Positions 217 through 28,131 of a stretch of DNA of 28,131 nucleotides are shown here, one piece after another. This DNA is from a virus: the IMG/VR virus record IMGVR_UViG_3300048772_000346, positions 1 through 28,131 of that record; one strand, given 5' to 3'. Numbering within the stretch: position 1 is the stretch's first letter; each line of letters starts with the position of its first letter. Under the pieces are notes generated by a model. That model was given only the letters and a program-made list of their open reading frames with translations. It had not been told where the DNA came from and did no database searches. A program made the translations under genes and the position numbers.

Positions 217-387
217 ATGGACGAGGAAGAGCGAGTCAAGCGGGCATTCGCGAAGAGCTGGGAAAAGTATGGTGCGGTCGATCCCCACACGGGCTTTCTG
301 TGGCGGCTGATTGAAGCCGCGAAGACGCATGAGGACTGGCAGAGCCTGGCTTATCGAATTCAAGCCGATGGAAGTTTGAGGCCATGA
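217..387 (+). CDS. Small hypothetical protein (56 aa)
   Basis: ATG at 217 opens a 56-residue frame ending in TGA at 385-387. The next gene starts at 384, so the two overlap as ATGA, the translational-coupling pattern used throughout this module. The protein is charged and helical (starts MDEEERVKRAF, then WEKYGAVDPHTGFLWRLIEAA) with no membrane segment or signal peptide. No family is recognised. The ribosome-binding site is weak (GAG a few bases upstream). Its neighbours are lysis or membrane-type genes. The stop/start overlap is the best evidence that it is real. Confidence 0.5.
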   Translation: MDEEERVKRAFAKSWEKYGAVDPHTGFLWRLIEAAKTHEDWQSLAYRIQADGSLRP

Positions 388-1142
388 TGAATCTGGACGT
401 GAAAGCCCAAATCGCCGAGCGTATCGCCGGGGCAGTTTGCCTTTTGGCGGTTGCCGGCAGTGCTGCGTTTTTCGCTTGGGATTCTCACCAGACCCAAGTC
501 ACTACGAGGCAAACGGTTCTGGGCGTGACGGCCACGCTGGCCAACGTTAACCGGCCCTGTACGCCAATCAAAGGCCAGCTCCTTACCGTGGATAACGCAA
601 AAGACTGCGGGCTGCTGGCTCAGTCTTCCATCACTCTGAATACGCTGCGCGGCACTTTGGGGCAGGTTGAGGCAGCAGCAAAGAAAAACGGCGCTGTCTC
701 TACTGACTTGCACAACACACAGATTGCCTTGCAGGGGACAGTCAACTCGCTCGGAAAGACTTCCGACGCGCTCACAAGAACGGCCAACGCAGCCACAGAG
801 ACGCTCAACGCTGCCACCGACACCCTGGGCGAAGGGGAACGCGCCATCGCCGCCGCGCAACCGCTGCTGGCAGCCTACACGGCCAGTGGTTACGACCTGG
901 ACGCCCTGCTCAAGGACCAAAGCATTCACCGGACCATTAACAACGTGGACCGGCTGAGCCTGGCTTTGGCCGGGACCACGGAAAATATGCAGGGCATGAC
1001 CGGCGACGGCAAGCGGGTGGCTGACGATTTGACCAAGCTGTACTTCACTCCCAAGCCGTGGTGGAGGAAGGCGGGGGCAACGATGTTTGACGGGACCAAG
1101 GTCGGCGTCTCGCTCGGCTGCCTTCTGTCCAGGGCTTGCTGA
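384..1142 (+). CDS. Membrane-anchored helical phage protein, possible inner-membrane lysis component
   Basis: This 252-aa protein has one N-terminal hydrophobic segment at about residues 12-32 (around AGAVCLLAVAGSAAFFAW). A long Ala/Thr/Asn-rich helical region follows at about 80-215, with spaced leucines that could form a coiled coil. The C-terminal stretch is Trp/Lys-containing (PKPWWRKAG) and may be amphipathic. The predicted topology is a short cytoplasmic N-terminus with the rest in the periplasm. It precedes a tiny lipoprotein gene, which is how i-spanin/o-spanin pairs (Rz/Rz1) are arranged, but it is longer than a usual Rz protein, so that role is only inferred. A phage MlaD-like or plain hypothetical membrane protein is the alternative. 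ATG at 384 and ATG at 387 are both possible starts. Confidence 0.6.
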   Translation: MMNLDVKAQIAERIAGAVCLLAVAGSAAFFAWDSHQTQVTTRQTVLGVTATLANVNRPCTPIKGQLLTVDNAKDCGLLAQSSITLNTLRGTLGQVEAAAKKNGAVSTDLHNTQIALQGTVNSLGKTSDALTRTANAATETLNAATDTLGEGERAIAAAQPLLAAYTASGYDLDALLKDQSIHRTINNVDRLSLALAGTTENMQGMTGDGKRVADDLTKLYFTPKPWWRKAGATMFDGTKVGVSLGCLLSRAC

Positions 1143-2297: not shown

Positions 2298-3014
2298 ATG
2301 ACCAAACCCAGACCCAAAACCGGAGAAGCGCGGAAGTCCAAGCAGCCGCTCAAGATCGACCGCCTGCCGCAGTCTGCGCAGGATGCGATCAAGCAGCTCT
2401 ATGACCGGGGACGGACCTGGGTGGAGATTTCGGAGCAATCGGCCAGGCCTTACAGCGCCGAATGGGAAAAAGACGGAGGGGGCTTCATCGACTGGGAGCT
2501 GGTGGATACCGGCAGCCTGGATCTCTTCCCGGATCTGCGCCTGGCCAAATCCACACTGCAGCGCTGGTTTGACCTGCGCGTGGCCCAGGTGCGAGCTCAA
2601 GTGCTGGCGGAAAGCGCCAAGGCTCGCGAATGGGCCGGGGCTTTCGCCGGGAATGATCTGCCCGAGTCCAACGCGGCCGTGATGAACGCCATGCGCGACC
2701 AGGTCTTCACGCTGATGCAGAAGGTAGGGCCGGGCGACCAGGCGAAGTTCCTGGAGGGCCTGAACCTGCTTTCGCTCACCATGTCGCGTTTGCAGAGAGT
2801 GGAGCTGCAAGCCAAGCGCGTGGAAGTGGATGCGCGCAAGCTGCGCGTGCTGGAAGAGCGCGAGACTCTCCAACGCCAGAAGCTGGAAGCCGAAACCGAG
2901 GGCGCGGCCAAGAAGCTGCAAAAGGGCGAACTGACCGTCGCCGACATCAACCGCCTGCGTGAGAGGGTCTTCGGGCTGCCGCCGGTCGAGAATCCGGCGG
3001 CTCCTCATGCCTGA
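2298..3014 (+). CDS. DUF3486 family protein (Mu gp27-like), probable small terminase subunit
   Basis: This 238-aa protein matches the Mu gp27/DUF3486 pattern. It has a basic N-terminus, a helix-turn-helix-like region (LPQSAQDAIKQLYDRGRTW), a central helical domain, a long charged coiled coil at about residues 160-215 and the C-terminal phrase LTVADINRLRERVFGL. Members lie directly upstream of the large terminase in Mu-like phages and are thought to act as the DNA-recognition subunit of the packaging motor. Its stop overlaps the terminase start (ATG at 3007), indicating translational coupling. Family assignment is firm; the exact role is inferred from position. Confidence 0.85.
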   Translation: MTKPRPKTGEARKSKQPLKIDRLPQSAQDAIKQLYDRGRTWVEISEQSARPYSAEWEKDGGGFIDWELVDTGSLDLFPDLRLAKSTLQRWFDLRVAQVRAQVLAESAKAREWAGAFAGNDLPESNAAVMNAMRDQVFTLMQKVGPGDQAKFLEGLNLLSLTMSRLQRVELQAKRVEVDARKLRVLEERETLQRQKLEAETEGAAKKLQKGELTVADINRLRERVFGLPPVENPAAPHA

Positions 3015-4422
3015 AATCAAACTTCCTCCCGTCATTCAGCTTCGCCCTTACCAGCAGCGCTGGGTGGACGATCACACCCGCTTCAAGTGCGCCGTGAAAT
3101 CGGCCCGCATCGGCTTCAGCTACGCCACCGGCCTGGAGGCGATCTTCGATTGCCTGGAACACGCCAACGCCACCTGGACGGTGCTCAGCGCCTCGAAGGC
3201 GCAGTCTACCGAGTTCATTGAGACCTGCCAGAAGAACCTGGAGCTGATGGGTGGCACGGCCCGGATGTACGCCGACGAAGACTTCATCGACGTTTTCGGG
3301 CGCATCGAGGGTATTCAGCAGCGCATCACCTTCCCCAATGGCAGCCGCATCATCGCTCTGCCCGCCAACCCGCGCACGGCGCGCGGCTACCCCGGCAACG
3401 CCATTCTTGACGAGTTCGCGCATCACGAAGACAGCTACGCGATCTTCGCGGCCGTCTTCCGCCAGGTGGCGCTGGGGCACAAACTGCGCGTGCTCTCGAC
3501 GCCCAACGGCGAACAGGGCAAGTTCCACGACATCGCCCGCCAGCTCGGGCTCGACCTGGGCGTGGCGCCATCGCAATTGCCGGTGAAGGTGGACGGCTGG
3601 AGCGGCCATTGGGTGGATGTGCACCTGGCCGTGGCCGAGGGCTGTCCGATCAACATCGAGGAGATGCGCCGCGGCCTGAACGACGACGACACCTGGAATC
3701 AGGAGTTCTGCTGTATCTTCCTCAAGTCCACCGGGGCCTGGCTGACGCTGGACCTGATCTCGGCCTGCGAAGATGCTGGGGCGACGATCGATCTTCCTCC
3801 CGACTTCCACCCGCGCGGATCACTCTACAGCGGCATCGATGTGGGCCGGGATCACGACGCCACCTGCCTCTGGCTCGACGAGAAGATTGGCGACGTGGCC
3901 TGGACCCGCGCGGTCATCAAGCTGCACGCCATGAGCTTCCCCGAACAGTGCAAAAGGCTGAATCCGATTGTGCGCATGACTTCGCGGAGTGCCATCGACA
4001 AGACGGGCATGGGCGTGGGCCTCTTCGACTTGCTGAATCTGGAGAACGAGGGCCGGTTGATGGGCGTCAGCTTCGGCGGTTCGAACGATGATGGCGTGAA
4101 GATGAAGACCGACCTGGCCATCCGCATCAAGAAGCGCCTGGAGCAGCAGCGCAGCCGCCTTCCCTACGATCTGCAGATTCGCGCCGAACTCCAGGCCATC
4201 AAGCGCCAGGCGACGCCCAGCGGCGTCACCTTCGACGCGCCGCGCATCGAGGTGGACACGGCCGTGGCTGGCGGCGTGAAGAAGAAGCTCTTTGCCCATG
4301 CTGATGCTTTCTGGGCCAAGGCGCTGGCGGACCTGGCTGGAGACGGCGGCGCATGCCTGCTCTCCGGGGTTCAGACTCCGGACACGCCCACGTCTTATTC
4401 GCAAATGAAGGGGTACCTCTGA
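3007..4422 (+). CDS. Terminase large subunit (Mu gp28-like)
   Basis: This 471-aa packaging motor has an ATPase and a nuclease domain. ATG 3007 overlaps the upstream stop. The upstream in-frame start at 2959 would run 18 codons into the DUF3486 gene and is not favoured. Visible motifs are a Walker-A-like loop at 31-37 (KSARIGFSY, lacking the classical GKT as in other Mu-type terminases), Walker B plus catalytic Glu at 133-136 (ILDE) and the coupling motif at 163-167 (LSTPN). The RNase H-like nuclease shows YSGIDVGRDHD at 274-284, AIDKTGMG at 329-336 and the final acidic site HADAFWAKALA at 431-441. It would translocate DNA into the prohead together with the DUF3486 protein and the portal. Confidence 0.92.
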   Translation: MPEIKLPPVIQLRPYQQRWVDDHTRFKCAVKSARIGFSYATGLEAIFDCLEHANATWTVLSASKAQSTEFIETCQKNLELMGGTARMYADEDFIDVFGRIEGIQQRITFPNGSRIIALPANPRTARGYPGNAILDEFAHHEDSYAIFAAVFRQVALGHKLRVLSTPNGEQGKFHDIARQLGLDLGVAPSQLPVKVDGWSGHWVDVHLAVAEGCPINIEEMRRGLNDDDTWNQEFCCIFLKSTGAWLTLDLISACEDAGATIDLPPDFHPRGSLYSGIDVGRDHDATCLWLDEKIGDVAWTRAVIKLHAMSFPEQCKRLNPIVRMTSRSAIDKTGMGVGLFDLLNLENEGRLMGVSFGGSNDDGVKMKTDLAIRIKKRLEQQRSRLPYDLQIRAELQAIKRQATPSGVTFDAPRIEVDTAVAGGVKKKLFAHADAFWAKALADLAGDGGACLLSGVQTPDTPTSYSQMKGYL

Positions 4423-5882
4423 TGGCCGACGAAAAGATTCCCGCCGTTCCGCCGCTGCCGCCCAAGGGCGAGATGATTCCGGCGTCCAGCTCCTACCTCG
4501 CGCAGATCTCGCTCTACCGCAACACTCTGGCCTTTGGCGGCACGCGCAATCCCACGGCGATCTGGGCGGCGATGATGTACAACCAGCCGGAGACGATGGC
4601 CTACTACCGCGAGCTGGAGGACAAGGACGAGGATGTGGCCAATTGCCTGGACACGCTCAAGCTCTCGGTGCTGGAGCGCGACCGCAGCGTTTACCCCGCG
4701 CCGCGCGATGAATCGCCTCTGGCCCAGGAAGTGAAGGAGTTCGTCGAGGGGGAGCTGGGCAAGCTGGACTTCCACGCGGTGCTGGATTGCGTGCTCGACG
4801 CGCCCGGCTACGGCTTCAGCGTGCAGGAGATGATCTTCGATACCTCGATGGGGCAGGCATCGCTCGTGGACATCAGCGATTGCCCCCAGGAGCTTTTCCT
4901 CTTTGGCGACCGCTTCTATCCGCAAGTCGGGCCGCTGCAACTGCTCGACAATCCCTGGGCCTCGACAGGCCAGCTTGTTCCCGAGCAGAAGTTCTTGATC
5001 TTCAGCTATCGCAAGCGCAGCCGCAACCGGATGGGACGGCCGCTGCTCAAGGCTGTCTTCTGGCCGAGCTGGTTCAAGCGCAACATCCAGCGCCTTTGGA
5101 TGCAGTACGCCGAGAAGGGGCCAGGCACGGCCGTAGTGCACTACAACGACCCGGACAATGCCTCCGAGCGCCAGCAGGCGGTGAACATCGCCCAGGCCAT
5201 CATCGACAACGTGGCCGTCGCGGTGCCCAAAGGCTTCGAGTACGACCAGGAGCTTCTCAAGATCGCGCGCAGTCAGAATCCGGAGGTCTACGAGCACTTC
5301 TACCAGGCGATGCAGTACTCCATCGCCAGGAGAACCATGGGCGAGACGCTGACAAGCTTCGGGAATGAAGGCGGCGGCGGATCAAGAGCCCAGGGCCAGA
5401 CCCACGCCGATACGCTGGACAAACGCTCCGTCGAGCTCTGCCGCAGCTTGCAGTCCGTCATCAACCAGCAGCTCGTGAAGCCCCTTGTGCTCTGGAACTA
5501 CGGGCCTCAGGCGCCGATGCCGTTCTGGGGATTTGACCTGGAAGAGGCTGAGGATCTCCAACTCGCGCTGACGATTGACTCCGGCTTGCAGCGCATGGGC
5601 AAGAAATTCACGGTTGGCTACGTTTCAGATCGCTATGACCGGCCGTTGACTCCGGGCGAGACGGAAGATCAGGAGATGGTGCCCAACGCGACCGCGCCTT
5701 CCGTCGCCCTTACGGATCGCTCCACCACGACCTTCTCCGAACCACAGGTCGAGACCGCCATGCGCGCGGAGATGGCGCAGTACGACAAGCTCTTTGGGCA
5801 GTTGCAAACGGAGGCGGAAGGCCTCTTCAAAGAGCGTGTGCGGGAGATCGCGGCGGTAACCAGGCCGGACGGTGGCCAGTAG
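4422..5882 (+). CDS. Portal protein, DUF935 family (Mu gp29-like)
   Basis: This is a 486-aa protein starting at ATG 4422, which shares one base with the terminase stop. An ATG at 4353 is in frame but lies inside the terminase gene. Characteristic DUF935 features are the early YYRELEDKDEDVANCLDTLK segment, GYGFSVQEMIFD at about residues 128-139, a central stem/crown region and the stretch around GETLTSFGNEGGGGSRAQ, followed by helices typical of the C-terminal wing. Twelve copies form the ring through which DNA enters the head. Length and gene order (terminase, portal, gp30-like) are as in Mu. The stop lies inside the next gene. Confidence 0.92.
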   Translation: MADEKIPAVPPLPPKGEMIPASSSYLAQISLYRNTLAFGGTRNPTAIWAAMMYNQPETMAYYRELEDKDEDVANCLDTLKLSVLERDRSVYPAPRDESPLAQEVKEFVEGELGKLDFHAVLDCVLDAPGYGFSVQEMIFDTSMGQASLVDISDCPQELFLFGDRFYPQVGPLQLLDNPWASTGQLVPEQKFLIFSYRKRSRNRMGRPLLKAVFWPSWFKRNIQRLWMQYAEKGPGTAVVHYNDPDNASERQQAVNIAQAIIDNVAVAVPKGFEYDQELLKIARSQNPEVYEHFYQAMQYSIARRTMGETLTSFGNEGGGGSRAQGQTHADTLDKRSVELCRSLQSVINQQLVKPLVLWNYGPQAPMPFWGFDLEEAEDLQLALTIDSGLQRMGKKFTVGYVSDRYDRPLTPGETEDQEMVPNATAPSVALTDRSTTTFSEPQVETAMRAEMAQYDKLFGQLQTEAEGLFKERVREIAAVTRPDGGQ

Positions 5883-6714
5883 AGTGGCTGTCCGCTTCCA
5901 TTCGACGCCGCGCGATCACGCGGTGCAGACGCGCCTGGGCGATCTGCTGGCGAATCATCTGGCCGCAGCCAACCTGATGGGACGGCTGCACATCGTCGGA
6001 GTGGGCCTGAAAAAGGCGCGGCGCCCGGTGCGCCTGGCCACCAGCTCGCGGCTGGTGCGCTTCGCGGAGGACGACGCCCAGGGCGATACCTTCAACGCGG
6101 GATTCAGCTTCGATGTGCCGGCCGAAGGCGCTATCAGCTATTTGCGCAATCTGACGCCGGTGACGCGGGATGTCTTCGACGGGCTCACCCGGCAGTACCG
6201 GCAAGATGCTTTCACGGTGGCGGGTGTCAGCGACCAGCGGTTGATCGCGAAGATCCGCGACGTGCTCTCCGACACGCTGGCCAAGGGTGGCACCCCGGCC
6301 GATTTCCGAAGCTCCGTAGATGAATTGACCTCTGAAGCCGGGGTGCAGCAGCTGGCGGCCTTCGAGCTGGATACCGTTTTCCAGACCAACGTGGGGAAAG
6401 CCTATTCGGCTGGGCGCCTGGAGCAGATGCGCGAGCCCGGCCTGATGGATGCCCTGCCCTTCTGGCAGTACTGGACGGCTGGCGACCTGCGCGTCCGGCC
6501 GGCGCACGCGGCGCTGGATGGCTTCTGCGCGCGAGCTATCGATCCGGTGTGGATGAAGATTTATCCCCCCAGCGGTTACAATTGCCGGTGTGCCGTGATT
6601 CCGGTATTGCCTGAGGACGCGCCACCAGGAAGCGATGAAGGCGGACTGGAACGGCTGCCGCTTCTGGCCCGTCTTGGAGTGCCTCAGCCCGGCTTCCACA
6701 CACTTACATCTTAG
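5872..6714 (+). CDS. Phage head morphogenesis protein (Mu gp30 / SPP1 gp7-like)
   Basis: This 280-aa protein starts 11 bases before the portal stop. The C-terminal signature is clear: RPAHAALDGF at about 206-215 and IYPPSGYNCRC at about 228-238, the conserved block of the Mu F / SPP1 gp7 minor head protein family. A helical region (SVDELTSEAGVQQLAAFELDTVF) precedes it. The protein is a minor capsid component needed for head assembly and is usually encoded next to the portal, as here. An imperfectly understood 71-base gap with a small 6-bp hairpin (6702-6719) spanning the stop follows before the protease gene. Confidence 0.88.
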   Translation: MASRVAVRFHSTPRDHAVQTRLGDLLANHLAAANLMGRLHIVGVGLKKARRPVRLATSSRLVRFAEDDAQGDTFNAGFSFDVPAEGAISYLRNLTPVTRDVFDGLTRQYRQDAFTVAGVSDQRLIAKIRDVLSDTLAKGGTPADFRSSVDELTSEAGVQQLAAFELDTVFQTNVGKAYSAGRLEQMREPGLMDALPFWQYWTAGDLRVRPAHAALDGFCARAIDPVWMKIYPPSGYNCRCAVIPVLPEDAPPGSDEGGLERLPLLARLGVPQPGFHTLTS

Positions 6715-6785: not shown

Positions 6786-8117
6786 ATGGCCAATGCACTC
6801 ACGAAGACAGTAGACGGCAAGCCGCTGACGGCGGATCAATTTGCCTACGTGGGAGACCCCAAGAATATCGAGTCCTGGCATCTGCCGCTGGACACGCACC
6901 AGCACGTCAATTCCGCGCTGGACATGTTCGCCCACACCGATCTGCCATCGAGCGCCAAAGGGCCGACAGCGCGCAAGATCGCGGCCAAGGCCAAAGAAGA
7001 GAATCTCGACACTACGGATTTTGTGAAGAATCACCTCCCTCAGACCTTCGCCGAGGCCGCTTCGCCGTGGATTGAAGTCTTCCGCGCGGGCGATTACCGC
7101 GACAAGGGCAAGGGGCTGATTACCCGCGCCGATCTCGATCGCGTGGTGCGCAACTACGATCCCACTTATCACGAGGCCCCAGTCACCATCGGCCATCCCA
7201 GCAACGACAAACCGGCCTTCGGCTGGATCGAGCGCCTGGCGGTGGACGGCGATACGCTGCTGGCCAAAGAAAAACAAGTTGACCCGCAATTCCATGAGGC
7301 GCGCAAGGCGGGGCGCTACAAGAAGCGGTCGGCCGCGTTCTACCAGGACGCATCCGGCCAGATCACCAGTCTGCGCCACGTCGCCTATCTGGGCGCGGCG
7401 CCGCCCGAGGTGAAGGGTTTGCAGGACGTCGCATTCGACGATCACGGGCTGGAGTTCATTGAGGTGGACTTCGGGGAGGATGAACCAGTGGCAGGAGAAA
7501 CGAAAACCGTAGCCGAGCAGATCAAAGCCTTCTTTGCGGAGGCTTTCGGCTCGAACGTTCAGCCGAAGACCTTCAGCGAGGACGATCTGAAGAGTATCAC
7601 CGGAGAAGCCCTGGCCAACGCGGCAAAGGCCTTCGACGCGAAGGTTATCGCTTTGCAATCGGAGCTGGCCACGCAGACCGCGAAGTTTACCGAACGCGAG
7701 AAGCTCATCGCCGGCGGCGAAGTGAAGCAGCGCGCTGTGGAAGCGGCCGCCCGGCTCAAGACGGCGGGCAAGTGGCTCCCGGCCTTCGACAAGATGGGCC
7801 TCGGCCTGGTCTTCGACGAGCTGGCCAAGTCCACCGCGACCGTGGAGTTTGGCGAGGGCGACGCGAAAAAGAGCGTCACGCCGCTGGAAACCCTGGTGCT
7901 CTTCCTGGAAGGCTTGCCGAAGATCGTCCCGTCGGGGCGCGTCTTTGAAGCCGCGGCTCATGCTCGCGGCGGCAACAGCAGCGGCGATCCGCTGACCGAT
8001 GCGGCCCGCGTTCGGCAGAAGGAAAAGAAGATCACCTTCAGCGAGGCGCTGGACGAAGTCGCGGCGGAGCAGCCGGAGCTGGCCGTTGCCGGCAGAACCA
8101 CCGCTGGCTCGATCTAA
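6786..8117 (+). CDS. Phage prohead protease with fused scaffold (Mu gpI-like)
   Basis: This is a 443-aa protein. Residues 1-90 form an extra N-terminal domain (ADQFAYVGDPKNIESWHLPL, then a helical Ala/Lys region) also seen on some other prohead proteases. Residues 95-225 carry the Mu-I-type protease, with IGHPSNDKPAFGWIERL at 135-151 (His 137 a likely catalytic residue) and KKRSAAFY at 179-186 (Ser 182 a likely nucleophile). Residues 236-443 are a charged helical scaffold region. The protease would mature the prohead and remove the scaffold. The start has only a weak ribosome-binding site after a 71-base gap. An internal start separately expresses the scaffold. Confidence 0.85.
   Translation: MANALTKTVDGKPLTADQFAYVGDPKNIESWHLPLDTHQHVNSALDMFAHTDLPSSAKGPTARKIAAKAKEENLDTTDFVKNHLPQTFAEAASPWIEVFRAGDYRDKGKGLITRADLDRVVRNYDPTYHEAPVTIGHPSNDKPAFGWIERLAVDGDTLLAKEKQVDPQFHEARKAGRYKKRSAAFYQDASGQITSLRHVAYLGAAPPEVKGLQDVAFDDHGLEFIEVDFGEDEPVAGETKTVAEQIKAFFAEAFGSNVQPKTFSEDDLKSITGEALANAAKAFDAKVIALQSELATQTAKFTEREKLIAGGEVKQRAVEAAARLKTAGKWLPAFDKMGLGLVFDELAKSTATVEFGEGDAKKSVTPLETLVLFLEGLPKIVPSGRVFEAAAHARGGNSSGDPLTDAARVRQKEKKITFSEALDEVAAEQPELAVAGRTTAGSI
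7488..8117 (+). CDS. Nested in-frame scaffold protein (Mu gpZ-like), internal GTG start
   Basis: Codon 235 of the protease gene is GTG at 7488, preceded by GGGGAGGA with a 7-base gap, a much better ribosome-binding site than the one at 6786. Starting there gives a 209-aa protein made only of the scaffold part (begins MAGETKTVAEQIKAFF), lacking all protease motifs. Mu gpI and lambda-type protease genes are known to contain an in-frame 3' gene for the scaffold, made in excess over the protease. The nested gene is inferred from the site and domain boundary; no expression data are available here. Confidence 0.6.
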   Translation: MAGETKTVAEQIKAFFAEAFGSNVQPKTFSEDDLKSITGEALANAAKAFDAKVIALQSELATQTAKFTEREKLIAGGEVKQRAVEAAARLKTAGKWLPAFDKMGLGLVFDELAKSTATVEFGEGDAKKSVTPLETLVLFLEGLPKIVPSGRVFEAAAHARGGNSSGDPLTDAARVRQKEKKITFSEALDEVAAEQPELAVAGRTTAGSI

Positions 8118-9054: not shown

Positions 9055-10110
9055 ATGGGCGGTTACGTTGGAACCATGCCGGCCGGGGCTCTGAATGTGG
9101 CGTTGGCGAACTTCGCCAAGGAGTTCCGCAACAATGCGTTGGTGGGCGACATCTTTGCTCCGCGCGTGCCCGTGGTCAGGCAGGCATTTCAGTATGTCGT
9201 CTGGAATCGCGACGATTTCAAACTGCCGGGCAGCACGTTGCGCGCCCCCGGCGGCAGGCCGCAGTCTGTGCGCCGCAGCTATTCGACGGCGCCGTACATG
9301 GCGACCTCTCACGCGCTGGAAGGCGACGTCCCCTTCGAAAGCGAGAGCTACGGCCTGGGCCTGGGCTTCTCGACGCGCAAGCAGCTCACCAAGCAGATCA
9401 TCTCGCAGATCAACCTCGACCGCGAAGTGGCGATCTCCAAGCTGCTGTTGAGCGAGTTGAACTTTCCCAACTTCATCGATCTCAGCGCCGGAACCAATAA
9501 CCAGTGGGACAAGTATCCCGCTGTGCCTGGCGCCGGGACGGACGGCTCTCACCCCATCGTGCAGATCGAGGCGGCCAAGGCCATCCTTCGCCAGGCGGGC
9601 GTGCAGGATGCCGACATGGGCCTGCTCCTGAGCGATCCGGTGGTGGTCGCCTTGCAGAATCATCCGGACATCATCAATCGCTTCAAGTACACCAGCCCTG
9701 GCTCGATCTCTCTCGATCAGCTCTCGCAGGTTTTCCGCGTCAAGTGCATCCAGGGCAGCGCCATCCTGCTCAACCGGCAGAATGCGGCTTCCTGGGTCTG
9801 GGGCAGCAACGCCTTCCTGGGCTACGCGCAGGCCGCGCCCACTCAGGACGATGTTTCCTGCGCCAAGACCTTCGTCTGGACCGGCGGAACGGACGGGAAC
9901 GGCGCCACCATTGCCGCGCCTCCCTCGACCGTGGACGGCTACGGCGTTCTGGAATGGATCGAGCCTCACCTGTCCGAAAAGAAGTACTGGCAGTCGGTGG
10001 ATTGGTACTACGATATCCGCGCGACGGCCTCGGAGACGGGCATTCCCCTGCTCAACGCGCTGAGCGTCGCTCCTGTCATGGGCACGATCCCCGGCGACAT
10101 CGAGGGCTGA
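9055..10110 (+). CDS. Major capsid protein
   Basis: This 351-aa protein has a strong GGAGGA ribosome-binding site. It is placed between the decoration protein and the small connector genes, the normal major-capsid position in Mu-like and B3-like phages. The N-terminal part (NNALVGDIFAPRVPVVRQ, then FQYVVWNRDDF) is the wording of HK97-fold capsid proteins that begin with a short N-arm. A GILL-type helical spine (AKAILRQAGVQDADMGLLLS, VVVALQNHPDI) and a beta-rich C-terminus (KKYWQSVDWYYDIRA) follow. No cysteine or cross-link lysine assignment is possible by eye. The whole capsid is expected to be cut and matured by the protease encoded at 6786. Confidence 0.85.
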   Translation: MGGYVGTMPAGALNVALANFAKEFRNNALVGDIFAPRVPVVRQAFQYVVWNRDDFKLPGSTLRAPGGRPQSVRRSYSTAPYMATSHALEGDVPFESESYGLGLGFSTRKQLTKQIISQINLDREVAISKLLLSELNFPNFIDLSAGTNNQWDKYPAVPGAGTDGSHPIVQIEAAKAILRQAGVQDADMGLLLSDPVVVALQNHPDIINRFKYTSPGSISLDQLSQVFRVKCIQGSAILLNRQNAASWVWGSNAFLGYAQAAPTQDDVSCAKTFVWTGGTDGNGATIAAPPSTVDGYGVLEWIEPHLSEKKYWQSVDWYYDIRATASETGIPLLNALSVAPVMGTIPGDIEG

Positions 10111-12009: not shown

Positions 12010-12341
12010 CCACAGCAGCTTCCGATTTCGTCCAGGTGCAATTGAGTGCCGCGGGCCTCAACTACGCTGGCCAGGGCGCGACAGTGCGCATTGCCAACGG
12101 GCATTTCAGCTACGTCTTCACGGGCTCGACTCCGGTGCGCGTGCTTACCAGCGAATGGCGGCGCGTGCTCTCGCTCAAGCTGCACCTGGGCCAGCCCGTC
12201 TTCGAGATTGCACCGGCCGCGCCCGTTACAGCCACGCCGGCCACTCCGGCAGCGGCCGCGCCGGTCACCCACGTCATCTCCGCGCCCGCCAGCCACACGG
12301 ACGCTCCAACCGCTTCTGAAACTACGCACGAGGTGAAGTAA
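12006..12341 (+). CDS. Small Ala/Pro-rich hypothetical protein before the tail tube gene
   Basis: This is a 111-aa protein overlapping both neighbours (ATGA at 12006, TAATG at 12341). Residues 1-65 form a beta-rich unit (VQVQLSAAGLNYAGQG, FSYVFTGSTPVRVLTSEWRR). Residues 66-111 are a low-complexity Ala/Pro/Thr tail that is probably disordered. Small proteins at this site between the tail terminator and the tail tube occur in Mu-like phages, but I do not recognise this one as a named family. The tail may be a flexible linker or a product of repeat slippage. Confidence 0.65.
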   Translation: MTTAASDFVQVQLSAAGLNYAGQGATVRIANGHFSYVFTGSTPVRVLTSEWRRVLSLKLHLGQPVFEIAPAAPVTATPATPAAAAPVTHVISAPASHTDAPTASETTHEVK

Positions 12342-13366
12342 TGTCGGGACCGTTCAATTTTCTTTCGCAGTGGAAAACCGCCCGAAACCTGATGCTCAGC
12401 GTCAACAGCCAGGCGGCCTGGAATACCGCGCTGGCGGACGCGGCGCTCACCCAGCGCCAGCGTTTCGACGGCGCGGCGGTTCTGGAACGGAAGATTACCC
12501 GCCGCTCCGACATCGCGTATGCCGGCAAAGGGACAGCTTTCGCCACCAACGGCCAGATCACCAGCTACGACACCGGCTTCACCGGCCTCAAGGCTGAGCT
12601 TTCGCCCTGGCTGGCCGGCTGGCTGCTGGCCTTCCTGATGGGCCAGGACACGGTGACCGGCGTGGCGTCTCCCTATGCGCACTCTTTCACCTTCGACGAG
12701 AGCACCCGCACCGCGGTGCCCACGACGATCTACCTCGAAGACACCGAGGACGTGCATTACAAGTGCCCGGATATGTGCCTCAACGACATCACGCTGACCA
12801 TCAGCGAGCTCGGCGCCATCATGGCCGAGGCGAACCTGATGGGCACGGGCATCCAGATTCTGGGTTCGATGCTGACGGCGCTTCCGGTTGCGCCTACGGA
12901 AACGTACCTGCTGGGCTCGGATGCCGCGCTGAACTTCGGCCCGGTCGGCTCTCCTGCCAGCTTCATCGGCCGCCACATGAGCACCACGCTCAAGCTGGAG
13001 AATCAGCTCCAGGTGCATCGCGCTCCCGGTGGCGGCCTCTATGGCATCTTCGTCCGCAAGGGCAACCCCAAGTTCTCCCTCTCGACGACCTTCGCCGCCA
13101 AGGACACGGATGACATCTACACGCTCTTCGCCAACGACACGGCCAGCGATTACAACCTGACCGTCAACTCCGGCGCGGCCGCGCAGCTCAACATCTCCAT
13201 CCCCCAGATGCACCTGAAGACCACCAAGCTGGGCTTCGATGGCGACATGACGGTCTGGCAGGTGGAGAACGACGAAACCACCAACTACCAGGCGGCCGGT
13301 GTGCCTCCCATCACCCTGGGGGTCACCAACGCCGTGGCATCGTACCTGGCGCCCCCGTCTTCTTAA
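12341..13366 (+). CDS. Phage tail tube protein (siphovirus type)
   Basis: This is a 341-aa protein. N-terminal features are the RQRFDGAAVLERKITRRSDI block and YAGKGTAFATNGQITSYDTGF, followed by WLAGWLLAFLMGQDTV, and then beta-rich segments with CPDMCLNDITLTISE and MSTTLKLENQLQVHRAPGGG. This is the wording of tail tube proteins of long-tailed non-contractile phages. No sheath gene is adjacent, which agrees with a siphovirus-type tail. It stacks as rings around the tape measure protein. It is followed by a terminator and a 220-base gap, consistent with high, separately controlled expression. Confidence 0.82.
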   Translation: MSGPFNFLSQWKTARNLMLSVNSQAAWNTALADAALTQRQRFDGAAVLERKITRRSDIAYAGKGTAFATNGQITSYDTGFTGLKAELSPWLAGWLLAFLMGQDTVTGVASPYAHSFTFDESTRTAVPTTIYLEDTEDVHYKCPDMCLNDITLTISELGAIMAEANLMGTGIQILGSMLTALPVAPTETYLLGSDAALNFGPVGSPASFIGRHMSTTLKLENQLQVHRAPGGGLYGIFVRKGNPKFSLSTTFAAKDTDDIYTLFANDTASDYNLTVNSGAAAQLNISIPQMHLKTTKLGFDGDMTVWQVENDETTNYQAAGVPPITLGVTNAVASYLAPPSS

Positions 13367-14718: not shown

Positions 14719-17700
14719 ATGGCTGTAGAGACCAGCGCCGTCCAGATCGTCGTCAATGTCACCGACGCCAACTCCGGCGCGGTGATCGCGGGCGTCGAGC
14801 AGAACATCTCGAAGCTGGGCGCGGCCGGAACCACCTCTGGCCAGCAGATGCGGCGCGGCATGGAGGAGGCTGGCGCAGGCGCACTCTCGGCGCGGGAGAA
14901 GACGCGCCTGCTCAGCGAGGAGTTCGGCATCCGCATCCCGCGCGCCATGCAGTCGCTGATCGCGCAGAGCACCATTGCCAAATCTGCATTGTCGGTACTG
15001 GGCGGCGCGATGATCGGGCTGGGTACAATCCAGATCGGCGCGATGGTGTTTACAGCCCTGTTTGAGGGGGCCAAAAAACTCTACGAGAAATTCCTCGATG
15101 TAGACGGAGCGCTTCAGAGGTTCAACGATGAAGCCGGAGAGGCAGCTTCAAAGAAATTCTATGAAGATGCTGGCCTCGACCAACTGAACGCTGACCTCCG
15201 GGAAGCAAACCAGCAGCTCGATCAGCTCAATAGACAAAAAGGAATCGCGACCAAATGGGAGGGTACGAGCTGGGGCGAATTTGGATCTATGCTCAAATCG
15301 AGTGTTACCTCTATTGCCACATTCGGAGCTGTCCCCTACAAATACGGTTACGGTGTCGCTGGAGCGAAGGCTCAAAACTATCAGCAGGGAATTCAGGACA
15401 CCGATTCGTTGAAAAATATAGAGAATACCCATAAGAGGACCCTTCAGCAAATTGAAGACAGTAAACTGATCAGCGAAGCGAAGGTGACGGGCATAGCCAA
15501 AGCCCGCGTGGCGCAGGATGCGGAAAACAAAAAGGCGGATGAGGATCAACGATTTGCAAAACAGAGGGCTCAGGCTCTAGCCGAGGTCGCGAATCGGGGA
15601 ATAGATAACACGCGCTGGTACGGAAATCTGAAGCCAGGCGACAAGGGATATAGAGAGGCCGTTGTCGTCTCTTCCGACACAGGAAACGCTGAAAACGCCG
15701 ACGCAAAAGCACACTCTGCGGCCGAGTACCAAGCGCAGCAATTCGAAATCGGAAGGTCGCAAAGCCAGGATCTGGCGCATATGCGTGAGCAGGCTCTGGA
15801 AGCCGGACTGCACGGCAGCGCGCTTTATCACGCGCAGGAAGCGGCTGCGATCCAAGATTTGAAGTTCAAGGATATGGATTCAGTGGCGGCCCGCAACGCC
15901 ATTCATGCAAAATTCCATGCAGAAGAGATGAACCGGCTCCGGGCGGAGCAGGATGAAACCGAGAAGCTGGGCCGCACAGCCGCGATGGCCGGGATGACCG
16001 GCATCCAGAAGACCCAGGCGGAAGGTGCAAATCGCGTTGCGGATATTAACACTGACGCGGATAAAGTGGGCCTCGATCCGGCCGAGCGCGCCAAGCGCAT
16101 CGCCTTCGCCAACCAGGAGACGAATCAGCAGATCGCCGAAGAGCAGCGGACCTTCACCCAGGAGATCAATGCGCTGGCCGATTCCAGCGCTGCGCACCAG
16201 GTGCAGGGCTTTGCGCGGATCCACGCGGAGGCCGCGAAAGAACTCGACGGGCTGCAAAAGAAATTCGATGAAGTCTACGGGCACATGGACCGCTCCACGC
16301 CCGGGGGAGAGGCTCAGTACCAGCAGGGAGTTTCGCAGTTGCACGCCGGCCAGGGGATGATCGCCTCCGGAGAATCCGGCCAGGCGACGGAGCTGGCGCG
16401 CAAGAACGAGCAGGAGACCGAGCAGATTGAGGCCCAGGCCCGCATCAAGTTCTTCGACGCGGAAAAGCAGAAGACGCAGGCGATCAAGACCGAGCTCGAA
16501 GAGCGCCTGCAAAAGTACAAAGAGGAGCAGGTCAACGAAGGACTCTCGCAGGACGATTACAATCGGCGCGTGGTGGCAGCCCAGCTGGAAGCCAATGCGC
16601 AGATGATCCAGGCCGCCACCGAGGCGCGCCAGAAGATGGCTGGGGAGTTCACGCATCTGTTCAGCAGCATGGACCATCCGCTGAAAGCGCTGGCGGAGAT
16701 GGGCGACAAGGCCGCGGGCGAAGCGGCGGCGTCGCTCTGGCAGCGTTTCCAGGGGAAAGGCGCGGCCCCGGCGATGAAAGACATTCCCGCGAATTCACTC
16801 AACTCCGTCATCGGCGGCTTCGGCTTCCATGTAGGCGGCCACAAGCCGGGCGCGGCTCCGGGCCTGGGCGAGCCGGGCAGCGCCGTTCCAGCCAGCGCGC
16901 ATGCACCCGGCTCAGGGGCTGAGAAGACGATTGCGGTCAGCCAGGCCACCATCCACATTGCCAGCGCCACCTTCGCCGGAGGGCCGGCCACGGGTGCGGG
17001 CGCGGCGAGCATGGGCTCCGGAGCTCCCGGCGCAGGATCCGCGCCTGGTGTTTCGTCGCCCGCGTCAGGAAGCTATTCTTCTGCTCCTGGCTCAACTTCC
17101 ACCATCGCGGCCGGCCCGATTTCGGCCAGTTCCAGCGCCCCCGAATACGGCGCTTCTCTGCCCGCTTCCGGCAGCTCCAGCATAGGAACGGGCGTTGGCT
17201 ATGGTTCGACTCCCGCCGCTATCGCCGCCGGTGGTGCGGGCCGGGGCGGCGGCGCGGAAGGGATGGCCAACTTCGCCGCGGGAAGCGGGAGTGCTCCGAT
17301 CAAGGGCACCCCGGTTGGCACGGCCCTCGGAGAGGTGAATGAAGGCATCGGCCTGACCAAGCAACTGAAATCCAGTTGGATGACGGCTGGAACGGCCAAC
17401 TCTCCGTTTTTCCATCCGAAACGCTTCGGCCAGGAGCTCAAGGCCGACTTCAGCCGGCATCCGAAAAACAGTGTGGATGCGGGAACTGGCGCGGTCTCCG
17501 GTGCGGATAAAAACCTTGGCTCCGGCGCTTCCGATGCGGATAAAAACCTTGGCACCGGCGCGGCATCCGATGCGGATAAAAACTCTGGCACCGGCTCAGT
17601 GTCAGGCGATGGCTCTTCCAACTCCATCACTCCGAATGTGTCTTTTGCCAACGGCGTTTCCAGCGACGTGAGCTCTGTGCCGGGGTCGGTAAAACTGGCG

Positions 17701-18453
17701 CAAGGCAACGATTCGACGGTCCAGGGAGCCATGAGCGTCGGACAGGGCGCGGTGGGAATGTACGGGGCCATTGAAGGCGATGGAGGCGCGGGCGGAGCGC
17801 TGAAAGGCGCGGCGGCCGGAGCGGAGATTGGCGCAGCTTTCGGACCCATCGGCATGGCCGTGGGCGCGGCGGCCGGCGCGATTATCGGCGCGATCGGCAT
17901 CGGCGGCCGCGCAAAAGCTCGGGCCTACGATCTGAATACCGTGCGCCCGCGCCTGGCCAACGATCGCGACTCTTATCAGCAGGGCAGCATGGATTATTTG
18001 AGCGCCTACTCCGACGCGCAGAGCCTGCAAACCGAAGCGCAGAAGACCTGCAGCAAGCTGGGCCCCGCCGCTGGCCACTATTACTCCGACACCATCAAGC
18101 CGGAGATCATCGAGGCCGAAGGCAAGCTCACCGCCGAGCAGCGCGCCGGGCGCAGCATGTACACCACGTCGGCCGCGTCCTACGATGTCGGCACCGATTA
18201 CGTCCCGCAGACCGGTTGGAATCTGAACCATGTTGGCGAGCGCATCTTCCCCTCCGACCAAAACGAGCGCATCACGCGGGCTATCGAGGGTGGGGGCAAA
18301 ATGCCGGTCCAGGCCGCGGCGATGGGCGATGTGCACCTGCATGTCCACGCCATCGATTCGAAGGGCGTCGCCGGATTTCTGGACAAGTACAAGCACAATA
18401 TCCGCTCGGCGGTGAATGACAGCTACGCGGAGAATTCGGGAGGCGGCCTCTAA
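14719..18453 (+). CDS. Tail tape measure protein
   Basis: This is a 1244-aa protein, the longest in the window, located after the chaperones as expected. Residues 10-85 start the rod. A hydrophobic segment lies at about 88-115 (LGGAMIGLGTIQIGAMVFTA). Residues 120-690 are long charged coiled-coil regions rich in Gln, Glu and Ala. Residues about 695-960 are a Ser/Gly/Ala/Pro low-complexity stretch. A second hydrophobic Gly/Ala stretch lies at about 1023-1060. The C-terminus has the tape-measure phrase DYVPQTGWNLNHVGERIFPS. It sets tail length and may form a membrane pore at DNA ejection. GC content drops to about 49% at 15061-15480. Confidence 0.85.
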   Translation: MAVETSAVQIVVNVTDANSGAVIAGVEQNISKLGAAGTTSGQQMRRGMEEAGAGALSAREKTRLLSEEFGIRIPRAMQSLIAQSTIAKSALSVLGGAMIGLGTIQIGAMVFTALFEGAKKLYEKFLDVDGALQRFNDEAGEAASKKFYEDAGLDQLNADLREANQQLDQLNRQKGIATKWEGTSWGEFGSMLKSSVTSIATFGAVPYKYGYGVAGAKAQNYQQGIQDTDSLKNIENTHKRTLQQIEDSKLISEAKVTGIAKARVAQDAENKKADEDQRFAKQRAQALAEVANRGIDNTRWYGNLKPGDKGYREAVVVSSDTGNAENADAKAHSAAEYQAQQFEIGRSQSQDLAHMREQALEAGLHGSALYHAQEAAAIQDLKFKDMDSVAARNAIHAKFHAEEMNRLRAEQDETEKLGRTAAMAGMTGIQKTQAEGANRVADINTDADKVGLDPAERAKRIAFANQETNQQIAEEQRTFTQEINALADSSAAHQVQGFARIHAEAAKELDGLQKKFDEVYGHMDRSTPGGEAQYQQGVSQLHAGQGMIASGESGQATELARKNEQETEQIEAQARIKFFDAEKQKTQAIKTELEERLQKYKEEQVNEGLSQDDYNRRVVAAQLEANAQMIQAATEARQKMAGEFTHLFSSMDHPLKALAEMGDKAAGEAAASLWQRFQGKGAAPAMKDIPANSLNSVIGGFGFHVGGHKPGAAPGLGEPGSAVPASAHAPGSGAEKTIAVSQATIHIASATFAGGPATGAGAASMGSGAPGAGSAPGVSSPASGSYSSAPGSTSTIAAGPISASSSAPEYGASLPASGSSSIGTGVGYGSTPAAIAAGGAGRGGGAEGMANFAAGSGSAPIKGTPVGTALGEVNEGIGLTKQLKSSWMTAGTANSPFFHPKRFGQELKADFSRHPKNSVDAGTGAVSGADKNLGSGASDADKNLGTGAASDADKNSGTGSVSGDGSSNSITPNVSFANGVSSDVSSVPGSVKLAQGNDSTVQGAMSVGQGAVGMYGAIEGDGGAGGALKGAAAGAEIGAAFGPIGMAVGAAAGAIIGAIGIGGRAKARAYDLNTVRPRLANDRDSYQQGSMDYLSAYSDAQSLQTEAQKTCSKLGPAAGHYYSDTIKPEIIEAEGKLTAEQRAGRSMYTTSAASYDVGTDYVPQTGWNLNHVGERIFPSDQNERITRAIEGGGKMPVQAAAMGDVHLHVHAIDSKGVAGFLDKYKHNIRSAVNDSYAENSGGGL
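17502..17600 (+). repeat. Three tandem 33-36-base repeats inside tape measure gene
   Basis: Copies start at 17502, 17535 and 17571, each beginning TGCGGATAAAAAC, and encode the peptide unit (D)ADKNxGxGxxS three times in the Ser/Gly-rich part of the tape measure. The repeats are in frame, so copy number changes would alter protein length without breaking it. They are probably a recent duplication. Confidence 0.75.
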
Positions 18454-21394: not shown

Positions 21395-24300
21395 ATGGCG
21401 AATGCCTCCACCACTCAGACCAGTTCCGCCAGCGAGACCACTGGCACTCCGATTCCCCTGGCCTATGGCTACGCCTGGGCAACGGGCAAGCGCGCCGAAT
21501 ATTACCAGTTGCAGAACACTGGCAATTCGTCCAGGGACTATACCCGTGTGGGAATCTGGCTGCTGGGCCACGGTGAATGGGATGGCTGCACTGAGCTGTG
21601 GATCAATGACGTGCTGGCATTGGAAGGTGGTACCACGAGCACGACTTTTGGGCCATCCGCAACTCCGCAGGGCGGATTCGGCGGGCAGAACTGGGTGGCC
21701 GCAATAGATAGTGGCCCATCGATGGTTTTCAATTTCCACTCTGGATGCGATTCCACCATTGGAGCAGGTCTTACGCCAGTTTCCAGTGGCCCCGATCAGG
21801 GCGTTGACGTGCTCTTCGCTCAATTCCCGGCCGCCATCAATCCTCTGGCCTATTCGCGCATCGCGTACTACGCCATCATGCGCAAGCAGCCGATTCAGAA
21901 CCAGACCAACAAGCACCAGAACGATCCGACACAATGGGGAGACATCGCTCCTATCGGCCTGTGGCGCACTCTGCGTTGCCGCCTTTTTGATGACCAGGGC
22001 AACCAAACCGGCTACGCCTTTACCACCAATCCGGCCTGGCATTTAGTGGATGTCCTGCTGCGCCGCAAGCTGATGCCCGATTACGGCCTGGCGCTGAATA
22101 TCGGCCCGGATGCGCTGACGATTCCGGTGCAGAACCGCTTCGACTGGGGCTCCATCTATACCGCCGCGCAGTACTTCGATGAGATCCTCGCCAACGGCAA
22201 CCGGCGCTTTCAGGGCAATTACGTTTTCAGCACTCAGACCACGCTGCAAGCCGTGCTCGAACAAATTCTGCTCTGCTGCCGGAGCTACACGATGGAGTAT
22301 GCGGGCAAGATTTCGCTCAACTGCGATATGCCCCGCTCCAGCGTCTTTACCTTCAGCCGCTCCCACATCCTGCCGGGATCGTGGGGGGCCAGCGATCAGA
22401 CCTTGCACAAAAGCGGCAACCGCTACCTGGCCAATTATCGCGATCTGCTGGTGCCAGAGTGCAGCCAGATTGAATCGATCAGCTTCCCCAGCAACACAAA
22501 TCCGGTGGTTACCACCAAAGAGCCGCATCCGTTCAATAAGGCGGATCGCATCGCCATCGGTGGCACGAATACCGTTTTCGACAGCGAGTGGGTTGTACTG
22601 AGCGTCCCGGATGTCATCAACCCCGGAACTCCCGAAGAGGTCGATCCCACCATCTTCACGCTGACTTCCAAAGGATCGAATTATCCTGCTAGCGTGGGAG
22701 CGGTGGGCGGCTGCGGGCTGCTCTATTCACGCTTCAAGGAACGCACTCCGGAATTCTGGCACAAGACCAATATGCTCGCCCGCGGCGCGGTGGGCGCGGG
22801 CGTTCCCCGGTTGCGCAATAAGGTGAAACAGAGCCTCGATTTCGCCACCACAACTTTCGACCAGGCCAGCCGCCTCACTTGCTACGAAAGAGATCGGCTG
22901 CTGGGTCTCGATCAAACTCCGTACATCACACCGCCCTGCGTCAAGCTGCGCACTTCCATGTTTGCCCGCGACGCCAGCGGAAATCTGGCCTGCGCGATTC
23001 GTCCGGGCGATCACGTCACCCTCGATGACACCACCAACTTCCAGTACGCCGGCGAATATGAAGTGCTGGAGCCGCTGACCGTCTATCCTCCCAGCGCGCA
23101 GGCCGCTGGCTCTGGCGGAGAAATTGCGCTCAAGCCCACGGAAAACAGCGGAGAAATAGAGTTTGCGCTCGGGCCTTACAACGAAGCGATCATGTACGAC
23201 AGCAGCGACCCGGCGCAGGGAGGCTGGCCCAGCATCCCCGGCAGCTATCCGGGCAACGACGTCAATTACACCCAAATTCCCCTTGCCAATGGAGGTTCTT
23301 TCGTCTTCTTCACGGGCCAGTTGCCCAGCGGCCAGCAGTTCCAGCTCCCGTCATCCGGCTTTCCCCCCAACAATCTGCTCGCCTGGGCTTCGCCGGCTGG
23401 CGCCAGCATCGAGTACCACACTGCTCGCGTCGTCCAGATTTGCGCTGTCGCCGTGCCTTCTGCTCCCACTATGACTGTGGATGGCTTCGGACTTGTAATA
23501 ACTCCCGGCGTGGCGATCCCGCGCCAGCTAACTTTGATTTACAACGACAACGAAGGACACACCTGGACCGGAGACGTCAATTACGCCGCCCTGAGCTGGC
23601 TGAGCAGGGATGTGACGACCTCCAGCAACGGCATGACCTGGCTCGAACTCACCCTTCCCGGCGGCGAAGTCATACTCTTTGGCCAAGGCGTCCTCGCGGA
23701 TGAAGCCGCCATCGAACTTCCCGCCGGTTACTCCCAGTCCCAGGCTTTTGCCGTCTCTTACATCCATGACATGCCACTCCAAGGCAATAATATGTTTCTG
23801 GTGGGCAGCTATGTCGATGCGGACTTCGTCGTTCACCTCAATTGCTCCGACGATGCCGGGCATGTCTGGCACGGCAACTCCGCAGTGCTTGTCTTCGCCT
23901 GGAAAAACAACATGGGCACCGTCTCCACCCAGAGTCTCAGCGGCGGAAATTGGATGCAATGCACTTTGAGCACCGGGCAGATTTTCGGCGTTGGATGCGC
24001 CAAGAACATGGCCAACGGCTCAACTTTGGTTTTGCCTGCCGCCGCCGGCGATGGATCAACCCTGGAAGCGATGGTCGGCTCCTGCGACGGAAACTATGAG
24101 ACTCCTTCGAACCACGCGCAGGGCGTTGGGTCTTGCTATCTCGACGCGGAAAACATCGTTCACATCACCTTCCAGGATGGATCAGGAGAAGTCTGGCCCG
24201 GTCAGGACGATATCTTCGCTCTCTATTGCAGCTCTGCGGCGGCCGCGCCGACTTTGGTTACCGTGACGCCCGCGACCGCCAGCGTAGCTGAAGGAGCGAC

Positions 24301-24550
24301 GCAGCAGTTCACGGCCACCATCGCAAACAATGCTAACCCCAATGTCACCTGGAGTGTGGATGGCATCGCGGGGGGCAATGTAACGGTCGGAACGATCAGC
24401 GCCGCCGGACTCTATACCACGCCCAGCGCCGCCGGGTCGCACTCCATCACGGCTACCAGCGTGGCTGAGACTACAGCCTCCGGCTCGGCCGCCGTGACTG
24501 TGTGGAGCGGCGATAGCTCTGGCGGCGGCTGGACCATCAACGGGAGCTAA
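21395..24550 (+). CDS. Central tail hub / tip attachment protein (gpJ-like) with C-terminal repeats and Big_2 Ig-like domain
   Basis: This is a 1051-aa protein. Residues 15-330 have the hub wording: PIPLAYGYAWATGKRAEYYQ, VGIWLLGHGEWDGC, NPAWHLVDVLLRRKLMPDYG and RFQGNYVFSTQTTLQAVLEQ. Residues up to about 600 continue the hub with a receptor-side part. Then come three divergent tandem beta domains at about 633-735, 744-836 and 849-945 (pattern: Leu-Pro strand, D-x-x-G-H-x-W-x-G), and a Big_2 Ig-like domain at 952-1036 (QQFTATI, VTWSVDG, GTISAAGLYTTP). It would form the tail tip hub and position fibres. The Ig-like wording is the main hint of an acidobacterial host. Confidence 0.78.
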   Translation: MANASTTQTSSASETTGTPIPLAYGYAWATGKRAEYYQLQNTGNSSRDYTRVGIWLLGHGEWDGCTELWINDVLALEGGTTSTTFGPSATPQGGFGGQNWVAAIDSGPSMVFNFHSGCDSTIGAGLTPVSSGPDQGVDVLFAQFPAAINPLAYSRIAYYAIMRKQPIQNQTNKHQNDPTQWGDIAPIGLWRTLRCRLFDDQGNQTGYAFTTNPAWHLVDVLLRRKLMPDYGLALNIGPDALTIPVQNRFDWGSIYTAAQYFDEILANGNRRFQGNYVFSTQTTLQAVLEQILLCCRSYTMEYAGKISLNCDMPRSSVFTFSRSHILPGSWGASDQTLHKSGNRYLANYRDLLVPECSQIESISFPSNTNPVVTTKEPHPFNKADRIAIGGTNTVFDSEWVVLSVPDVINPGTPEEVDPTIFTLTSKGSNYPASVGAVGGCGLLYSRFKERTPEFWHKTNMLARGAVGAGVPRLRNKVKQSLDFATTTFDQASRLTCYERDRLLGLDQTPYITPPCVKLRTSMFARDASGNLACAIRPGDHVTLDDTTNFQYAGEYEVLEPLTVYPPSAQAAGSGGEIALKPTENSGEIEFALGPYNEAIMYDSSDPAQGGWPSIPGSYPGNDVNYTQIPLANGGSFVFFTGQLPSGQQFQLPSSGFPPNNLLAWASPAGASIEYHTARVVQICAVAVPSAPTMTVDGFGLVITPGVAIPRQLTLIYNDNEGHTWTGDVNYAALSWLSRDVTTSSNGMTWLELTLPGGEVILFGQGVLADEAAIELPAGYSQSQAFAVSYIHDMPLQGNNMFLVGSYVDADFVVHLNCSDDAGHVWHGNSAVLVFAWKNNMGTVSTQSLSGGNWMQCTLSTGQIFGVGCAKNMANGSTLVLPAAAGDGSTLEAMVGSCDGNYETPSNHAQGVGSCYLDAENIVHITFQDGSGEVWPGQDDIFALYCSSAAAAPTLVTVTPATASVAEGATQQFTATIANNANPNVTWSVDGIAGGNVTVGTISAAGLYTTPSAAGSHSITATSVAETTASGSAAVTVWSGDSSGGGWTINGS

Positions 24551-27905: not shown

Positions 27906-28064
27906 GGGTGCCTGAATGATCTTCTTGTCTGCCAGCAATCGGGGCTTGTCCGGAAGTAACTCTCGGACGATGCGGGGAGGCATTTCTGACGCCCGAGATC
28001 TCGACCCATTTCGGAGGCCATCATCCCCGGTTCTGGCAGCCTCTAAAATCTATGAAAAATGGAA
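27906..28064 (+). other. Non-coding stretch after last gene
   Basis: About 160 bases follow the fibre gene stop. I see no clear terminator with a T-run and no tRNA-like structure. The only distinct item is a 10-base palindrome (CGAGATCTCG) at 27994-28003. A plus-strand frame is open from 27916 to the window edge but its translation runs through the repeats and looks non-coding. Base composition falls sharply towards 28040. Confidence 0.4.
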
Positions 28065-28129
28065 TACAGGATTTATTTTGCCCCACCAGTGCAAAATAAA
28101 TTCTGTATCGGTGCAAAATAATTTCTGCA
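28065..28129 (+). repeat. Three 22-bp AT-rich repeats at the window edge, possible end of a transposable phage or IS
   Basis: Read from the right on the minus strand, 28129-28108 (TGCAGAAATTATTTTGCACC then GA) and 28107-28086 (TACAGAATTTATTTTGCACT then GG) are adjacent 22-bp copies, 18 of 22 matching. A third copy lies inverted on the plus strand at 28065-28086 (17 of 22 matching copy two). The outer copy begins 5'-TG, so the plus strand ends in CA at 28128-28129, as at Mu and many IS ends. Two 22-bp sites side by side plus a third further in resembles Mu transposase binding sites; IS21-type ends also have tandem repeats. About 34% GC over 28041-28131. Confidence 0.6.
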
Positions 28130-28131
28130 GC

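Follow-up and report, generated by a model that had tools for sequence, protein, structure and literature searches.

The closest described systems to the element reported here are transposable phages, among them Mu (Muvirus mu, NC_000929), B3 (Beetrevirus, NC_006548), BalMu-1 from Bacillus, Mushu from Faecalibacterium, RcapMu from Rhodobacter and the D3112-like phages PaMx73 and H70. Mu has TG...CA ends and, according to the same site search that we applied to our element, its R1 and L1 both start at nucleotide 9, R2 starts at 31, the inverted R3 at 57 and L3 at 154 (L2 was missed by this self-search of the Mu ends); the Mu L1-L2 spacer is 74 bp long (PMC3820752) and contains an HU site (PMC10122671). 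The early operon of B3 is inverted relative to that of Mu (PMC5977238), with the transposition genes directed toward the left end and the repressor and late genes rightward, and its Mu-like head is combined with a siphophage tail. PaMx73 and H70 carry 22-bp sites near both ends, a terminal TGT and one inverted right-end site (PMC4378225).

The window analysed here (the whole stretch of 28,131 nt) corresponds to C108:23520-51650 in an Acidobacteriaceae draft genome (2.72 Mb, 169 contigs), and an initial annotation had proposed that its right edge might be a Mu-type right end. Based on the termini, the duplication, the site layout, the gene content and the variable targets among relatives, all read from sequence, we conclude, with a probability of about 95%, that the repeats at this edge form the right end (attR) of a Mu-like transposable prophage, which occupies C108:10130-51654 (41,525 bp) and has both ends on contig C108. 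The spacing of its sites is that of the Mu transpososome and its recognition letters are specific to its clade, so that the phage belongs to an already known kind and adds to the Mu-like type. By analogy with Mu, multiple transposase molecules of the phage would bind L1/L2 and R1/R2/R3 and bring both ends together; after nicking at each 3' CA, the ends would be joined across a 5-bp stagger in the target DNA, which the ATPase would supply; the same reaction may serve both for lysogenic insertion and, in the lytic cycle, for replication through repeated transposition, and packaging would then include host DNA.

Ends of the prophage

As had been noted from the letters of the window, two direct copies and one inverted copy of a motif lie at the right edge, 160 nt after the last tail gene (which ends at 27905), in a sharply AT-rich block (34% GC in the final 91 nt vs 62% for the window, the lowest value among 91-nt stretches sampled every 7 nt). 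The motif is 18 nt long, with a spacing of 22 nt between the two direct copies (GTGCAAAATAAATTCTG at 28089-28105 and GTGCAAAATAATTTCTG at 28111-28127), and even one such direct pair was found in 13 of 2000 composition-matched surrogates of the AT-rich block. The CA that closes the outermost copy (28128-28129) had been taken as the end of the element, with host DNA from 28130; this CA is internal, the true terminus (...GCAGCCACA) being at C108:51654, i.e. at window position 28135 (4 nt outside the window), and the host flank starts at 28136.

A search for a left-end copy of the motif near a Mu-type transposase gene had been suggested as a check, and two such copies were found on the same contig, near the genes of a DDE transposase of MuA type and an ATPase of MuB type. 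When up to two mismatches are allowed, the only occurrences in the 2.72-Mb assembly are those in the right-end block, its copy in the overlap with contig C9, and two places around C108:10138-10260; the five copies in the prophage are confined to its ends (L1 and L2 on the left; R1, R2 and R3 on the right). Counted from the left terminus, L1 starts at 9 nt and L2 at 115 nt (the right sites are given in Table 1), and R1 and L1, at equal distances from their respective termini, are identical in 16 of 18 positions. The prophage starts with TGTG and finishes with CACA (TG...CA type); read inward, its left terminus is TGTGAATACAGAAATTATATTGCACTGG and its right terminus TGTGGCTGCAGAAATTATTTTGCACC. 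The end sequences are TGTGAATACAGAAATTATATTGCAC and TGTGGCTGCAGAAATTATTTTGCAC, each adjoined by TCCAA, which is the short target duplication that had been suggested as a check (5 bp, one copy outside each terminus).

This layout can be compared with those of the known phages. Besides sharing the R1, R2 and L1 positions of the prophage, Mu also has an inverted R3 (nucleotide 57 vs 52), and its 74-bp L1-L2 spacer fits the spacing found here; the recognition letters (CAGAAATTATTTTGCAC vs ...CGAAA in Mu) are nevertheless unrelated, and no L3 site was found in the prophage. The R2 register is common to the relatives described below and to Mu, BalMu-1, RcapMu and Mushu; the last three have R1 at 9 and R2 at 31, and BalMu-1 additionally has L1 at 9 and L2 at 116 (vs 115). 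They differ from the prophage in their hosts (from other phyla), in their site letters and in R3, which was undetected in them by the same search. The D3112-like phages differ in layout, with right sites at 4, 46 and 93 (R1 being the inverted one) and left sites at 10, 93 and 124 (PMC4378225).

The main competing reading in the initial annotation was that of an IS21-family end, whose termini also have repeated motifs and which would explain the end of the contig; such an element would lie beside or inside the phage. IS21 elements do have direct repeats in pairs at their ends, together with a CA terminus and 5-bp duplications (PMC10122671), and the contig end is close by. However, the inverted counterpart of this end is 41.5 kb distant, and the two ends are separated by a full set of phage genes (instead of istA/istB in about 2-3 kb), and it is this left-end position that refutes the reading, to which we give next to no probability. 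Furthermore, no istA/istB element bearing the repeats and no other copies of the motif were found in the genome, the transposase falls within a phage transposase family and has a MuB-type partner, host genes follow the right end, and the contig break is accounted for by a dispersed host repeat of about 155 bp. The end repeats could also be regarded as arm sites of a site-specific recombinase that had integrated a temperate phage at an att site, since lambda-like prophages often have arm-type repeats close to their ends. This is extremely improbable in view of the five-base duplication and TG...CA ends, of the targets, which differ in each of seven related prophages, and of the insertion sites, in which no shared att core of more than 5 bp was seen; in addition, the phage proteins scanned include the transposase and ATPase but no integrase.

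Table 1. Coordinates of the features of the prophage, of its relatives and of the host repeat (window positions unless a contig is named).
Feature	Coordinates	Strand	Remarks
Terminase small subunit	2298..3014	+	phrog_426
Terminase large subunit	2959..4422	+	phrog_2
Mu-type portal protein	4353..5882	+	phrog_113; PF06074 Portal_Mu, E=1.1e-67
Minor head protein (Mu gp30-like)	5872..6714	+	phrog_220
Head maturation protease	6786..8117	+	phrog_976
Major head protein	9055..10110	+	phrog_1005
Tail tube protein	12341..13366	+	phrog_290; PF18906
1244-aa protein, probably tape measure	14719..18453	+	by size and position only; no family match
Tail tip / host-specificity protein, lambda J-like	21395..24550	+	phrog_31, E=2.2e-18
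Last tail-region gene, 819 aa	25446..27905	+	no family match; relatives in viral contigs
AT-rich right-end block	28041..28131	.	runs on to the CACA terminus (C108:51654), then TCCAA
R3, third putative site, inverted	28067..28084	+	CAGGATTTATTTTGCCCC; nt 52-69 from right terminus
R2, second putative site	28088..28105	-	CAGAATTTATTTTGCACT; nt 31-48 from right terminus; direct repeat of R1
R1, outermost putative transposase site	28110..28127	-	inward CAGAAATTATTTTGCACC; nt 9-26 from right terminus
Related prophage	G254:C239:7066-46545		duplication CAAAC
Related prophage	G119:C1:2882137-2924879		duplication TCTCT
Related prophage	G032:C1:4002295-4045614		duplication GTGAG
Related prophage	G047:C1:423787-465130		duplication AAAAG
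Related prophage	G031:C2:347858-389723		duplication CAGCA
Related prophage	G140:C3:691867-730342		duplication GGAGG in phage orientation
Host-repeat copy	C46:10014-10168
Host-repeat copy	C40:37991-38153
Host-repeat copy	C130:7690-7855
Host-repeat copy	C79:23314-23471
Host-repeat copy	C97:10895-11050

Target site and host flanks

The right host flank past its first 32 nt was taken from contig C9, joined to C108 via a 116-nt overlap rather than by reads. For the joined flanks, at least five further matches exist within the genome (about 155 bp, 87-89% identity), and five uninterrupted paralogues of this host repeat (Table 1) span the junction without gaps and with a single copy of the five target bases, so that the ends and the 5-bp duplication are fixed without a second strain. 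An empty site was also sought in sister species and not found, because the flanking intergenic DNA is unconserved, and the paralogues within the genome were used instead. The repeat that holds the phage in one of its copies is a dispersed, MITE-like intergenic element with inverted ends TAGAGCGGTTCTCC(A/T)GTT, with partial matches also in sister genomes. In Pseudomonas aeruginosa, the transposable phage Ab30 has insertion hotspots near REP/BIME repeats (PMC5977238).

The position of the phage in a dispersed repeat also explains why the contig ends here, for which an IS21-family end had been offered as one explanation. The last three bases of C108 agree with the repeat consensus (ACTTCC) and not with C9 (ACTCCC), from which we infer that at the end of C108 the assembler met a multi-copy host repeat rather than an IS. 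Continuation of phage genes past the window, which would have spoken against a right end, was not seen; beyond the repeat, C9 contains reading frames that by eye are acyltransferase-like, Mur-ligase-like and LD-carboxypeptidase-like, i.e. host genes, and the nearest matches of the Mur-ligase-like protein are in Acidobacteriaceae genomes, many of peat origin. The host is a soil or peat Acidobacteriaceae bacterium, with the phage integrated in its chromosome.

Gene content and state of the prophage

The early genes near the left end, which include those of an AAA ATPase and a 651-aa transposase, read leftward; after them come a repressor gene read rightward, a lysozyme gene and the late genes. 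This is the arrangement of B3, which the prophage also resembles in its Mu-like head and probably in a siphophage tail, whereas the early operon is reversed with respect to Mu. The transposase belongs to phrog_310 (E=3.9e-73), and a search of the Protein Data Bank with its profile gave TnsB and MuA as the only matches; D242, D313 and E375, aligned with the catalytic positions of MuA, are invariant across nine members of the family. The ATPase, linked to the transposase, is of MuB type (phrog_296, DNA transposition protein, E=5.8e-32; AAA_22). Despite the MuA/MuB-type proteins and the Mu-type portal and head module, the transposases of the prophage and of Mu are only about 22% identical over 420 aa. 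Among the better matches in known phages are BalMu-1 and Mushu (about 23-26% identity), RcapMu is a weaker match, and the B3 transposase has no significant BLASTP similarity to that of the prophage.

Among the head, packaging and tail genes (Table 1), the tail genes look siphophage-like (tail tube and lambda J homologues), in line with the earlier proposal of a siphophage, and a long non-contractile tail may be predicted; in contrast to the contractile tail genes of Mu, they are lambda-like, with no match to a tail sheath or Mu baseplate among the proteins scanned. Between the lysis and terminase genes, a 252-aa protein (window 384-1142, equivalent to L010:9903-10661) weakly matches phrog_5105, a family of unknown function.

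Even with the ends correctly placed, the prophage could be a stranded copy that no longer transposes. It is present in a single copy in the draft genome, and no Mor or GemA homologue was found by profile search, so that the lytic switch may lack some component or include one that was not recognised (a GemA-like impression gained on reading L007:4720-5250 was unsupported by Pfam or PHROGs). Nevertheless, there is no interruption in the genes for transposase, ATPase, repressor, terminase, portal, capsid and tail, both ends fit the pattern of the relatives, and two IMG/VR contigs, belonging to other metagenome records, contain 18-kb and 12-kb stretches of the phage at 100% identity. A defective state is therefore rather unlikely. 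For this exact phage, one insertion site was seen.

Related prophages and left-end marks

Relatives of the transposase were found in 29 of 300 genomes of the same family, and six more prophages could be bounded exactly (transposase identities of 58, 47, 38, 38, 33 and 32%; Table 1), the seven ranging from 38.5 to 43.3 kb. Because ungapped end pairing alone is at noise level for regions of 30 kb or more (shifted controls score equally high), relatives were accepted only with the end pattern of the clade (TGTG at the left start and TGTGGC at the right start, read inward), a 5-bp duplication and internal sites. Ends were not found, owing to contig breaks or degradation, in G115 (one end only), G157, G109, G015, G030, G139 and G049, and neither were the left end of a second prophage in G119 nor the right ends in G097. 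In the seven prophages, the right-end sites lie at +9, +31 to +33 and, inverted, +50 to +53, and the left-end sites at +9 and +113 to +125; in the same search R3 is inverted also in G119, G032, G031 and G140, and the match is weak or absent for R3 of G254 and G047 and for a few other sites. The recognition letters shift across the relatives, from CAGGAATTA..TGCAC to CGCACGATCGATGACAC and GGCGCGATATTTGAGAGT, and the target sequences differ among the seven. Neither terminus had an exact match in the viral contigs; the last tail gene, however, led us to a relative, a viral contig from another metagenome (L192), with a nearly identical right end, beyond which the DNA is unrelated.

For the Acidobacteriaceae, a dominant soil group, transposable prophages that are complete and have exactly placed ends are thereby available; a search within a collection of papers, combining Acidobacteria with transposable phages, found none. 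Since the distances between end sites are kept while the letters drift with the transposase, the seven prophages form a natural series for studying how an enzyme of the MuA/TnsB type reads its ends, a question that bears also on Tn7-like and CRISPR-associated transposons.

Beyond the sites, the left ends share marks that are less familiar than the rest of the element. In the L1-L2 spacer, GGG[AC] occurs at exactly 30, 40, 50 and 60 in G254, G032, G047 and G140, at 29, 39, 49 and 59 in G031 and at 30, 40 and 60 in G119, and the ladder is degenerate in the C108 prophage (left end C108:10130-10330, equivalent to L007:3131-3330). Mushu has the same 10-bp ladder of GGG (30/40/50/60 from the terminus) and Mu has GGG at 33, 53 and 63; the ladder is absent in BalMu-1, RcapMu, D3112 and DMS3, and hence not general. 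Four of the seven prophages have a single perfect IHF consensus in about 41 kb, and in each of the four it lies at left +174 to +176 (+176 for the one in the C108 prophage), a location presumably unlike that of the Mu enhancer, and a DnaA-box-like TTTTCCACA is found at left +84, also in four of the seven. As in Mu, an HU- or IHF-like protein probably bends the L1-L2 DNA. Tentatively, these marks might form a second conserved layer of Mu-like left ends (the GGG ladder, whose triplets are spaced by exactly one helical turn, and, in the acidobacterial clade, the IHF-like site around +175 and TTTTCCACA at +84), a bending and replication-start module that would set the transpososome geometry independently of the letters, although shared ancestry could account for part of their conservation.

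Two further repeats or blocks were seen next to the end sites. Just inward of L2, at C108:10274-10480 (left end +145 to +350), there are three direct copies and one inverted copy of TCCAACCCAA, absent from the six relatives, which are possibly operator sites. Just inward of R3, the block TATGAAAAATGGAAT (window 28050-28064) is kept in G119, G047 and L192 despite their changed site letters.
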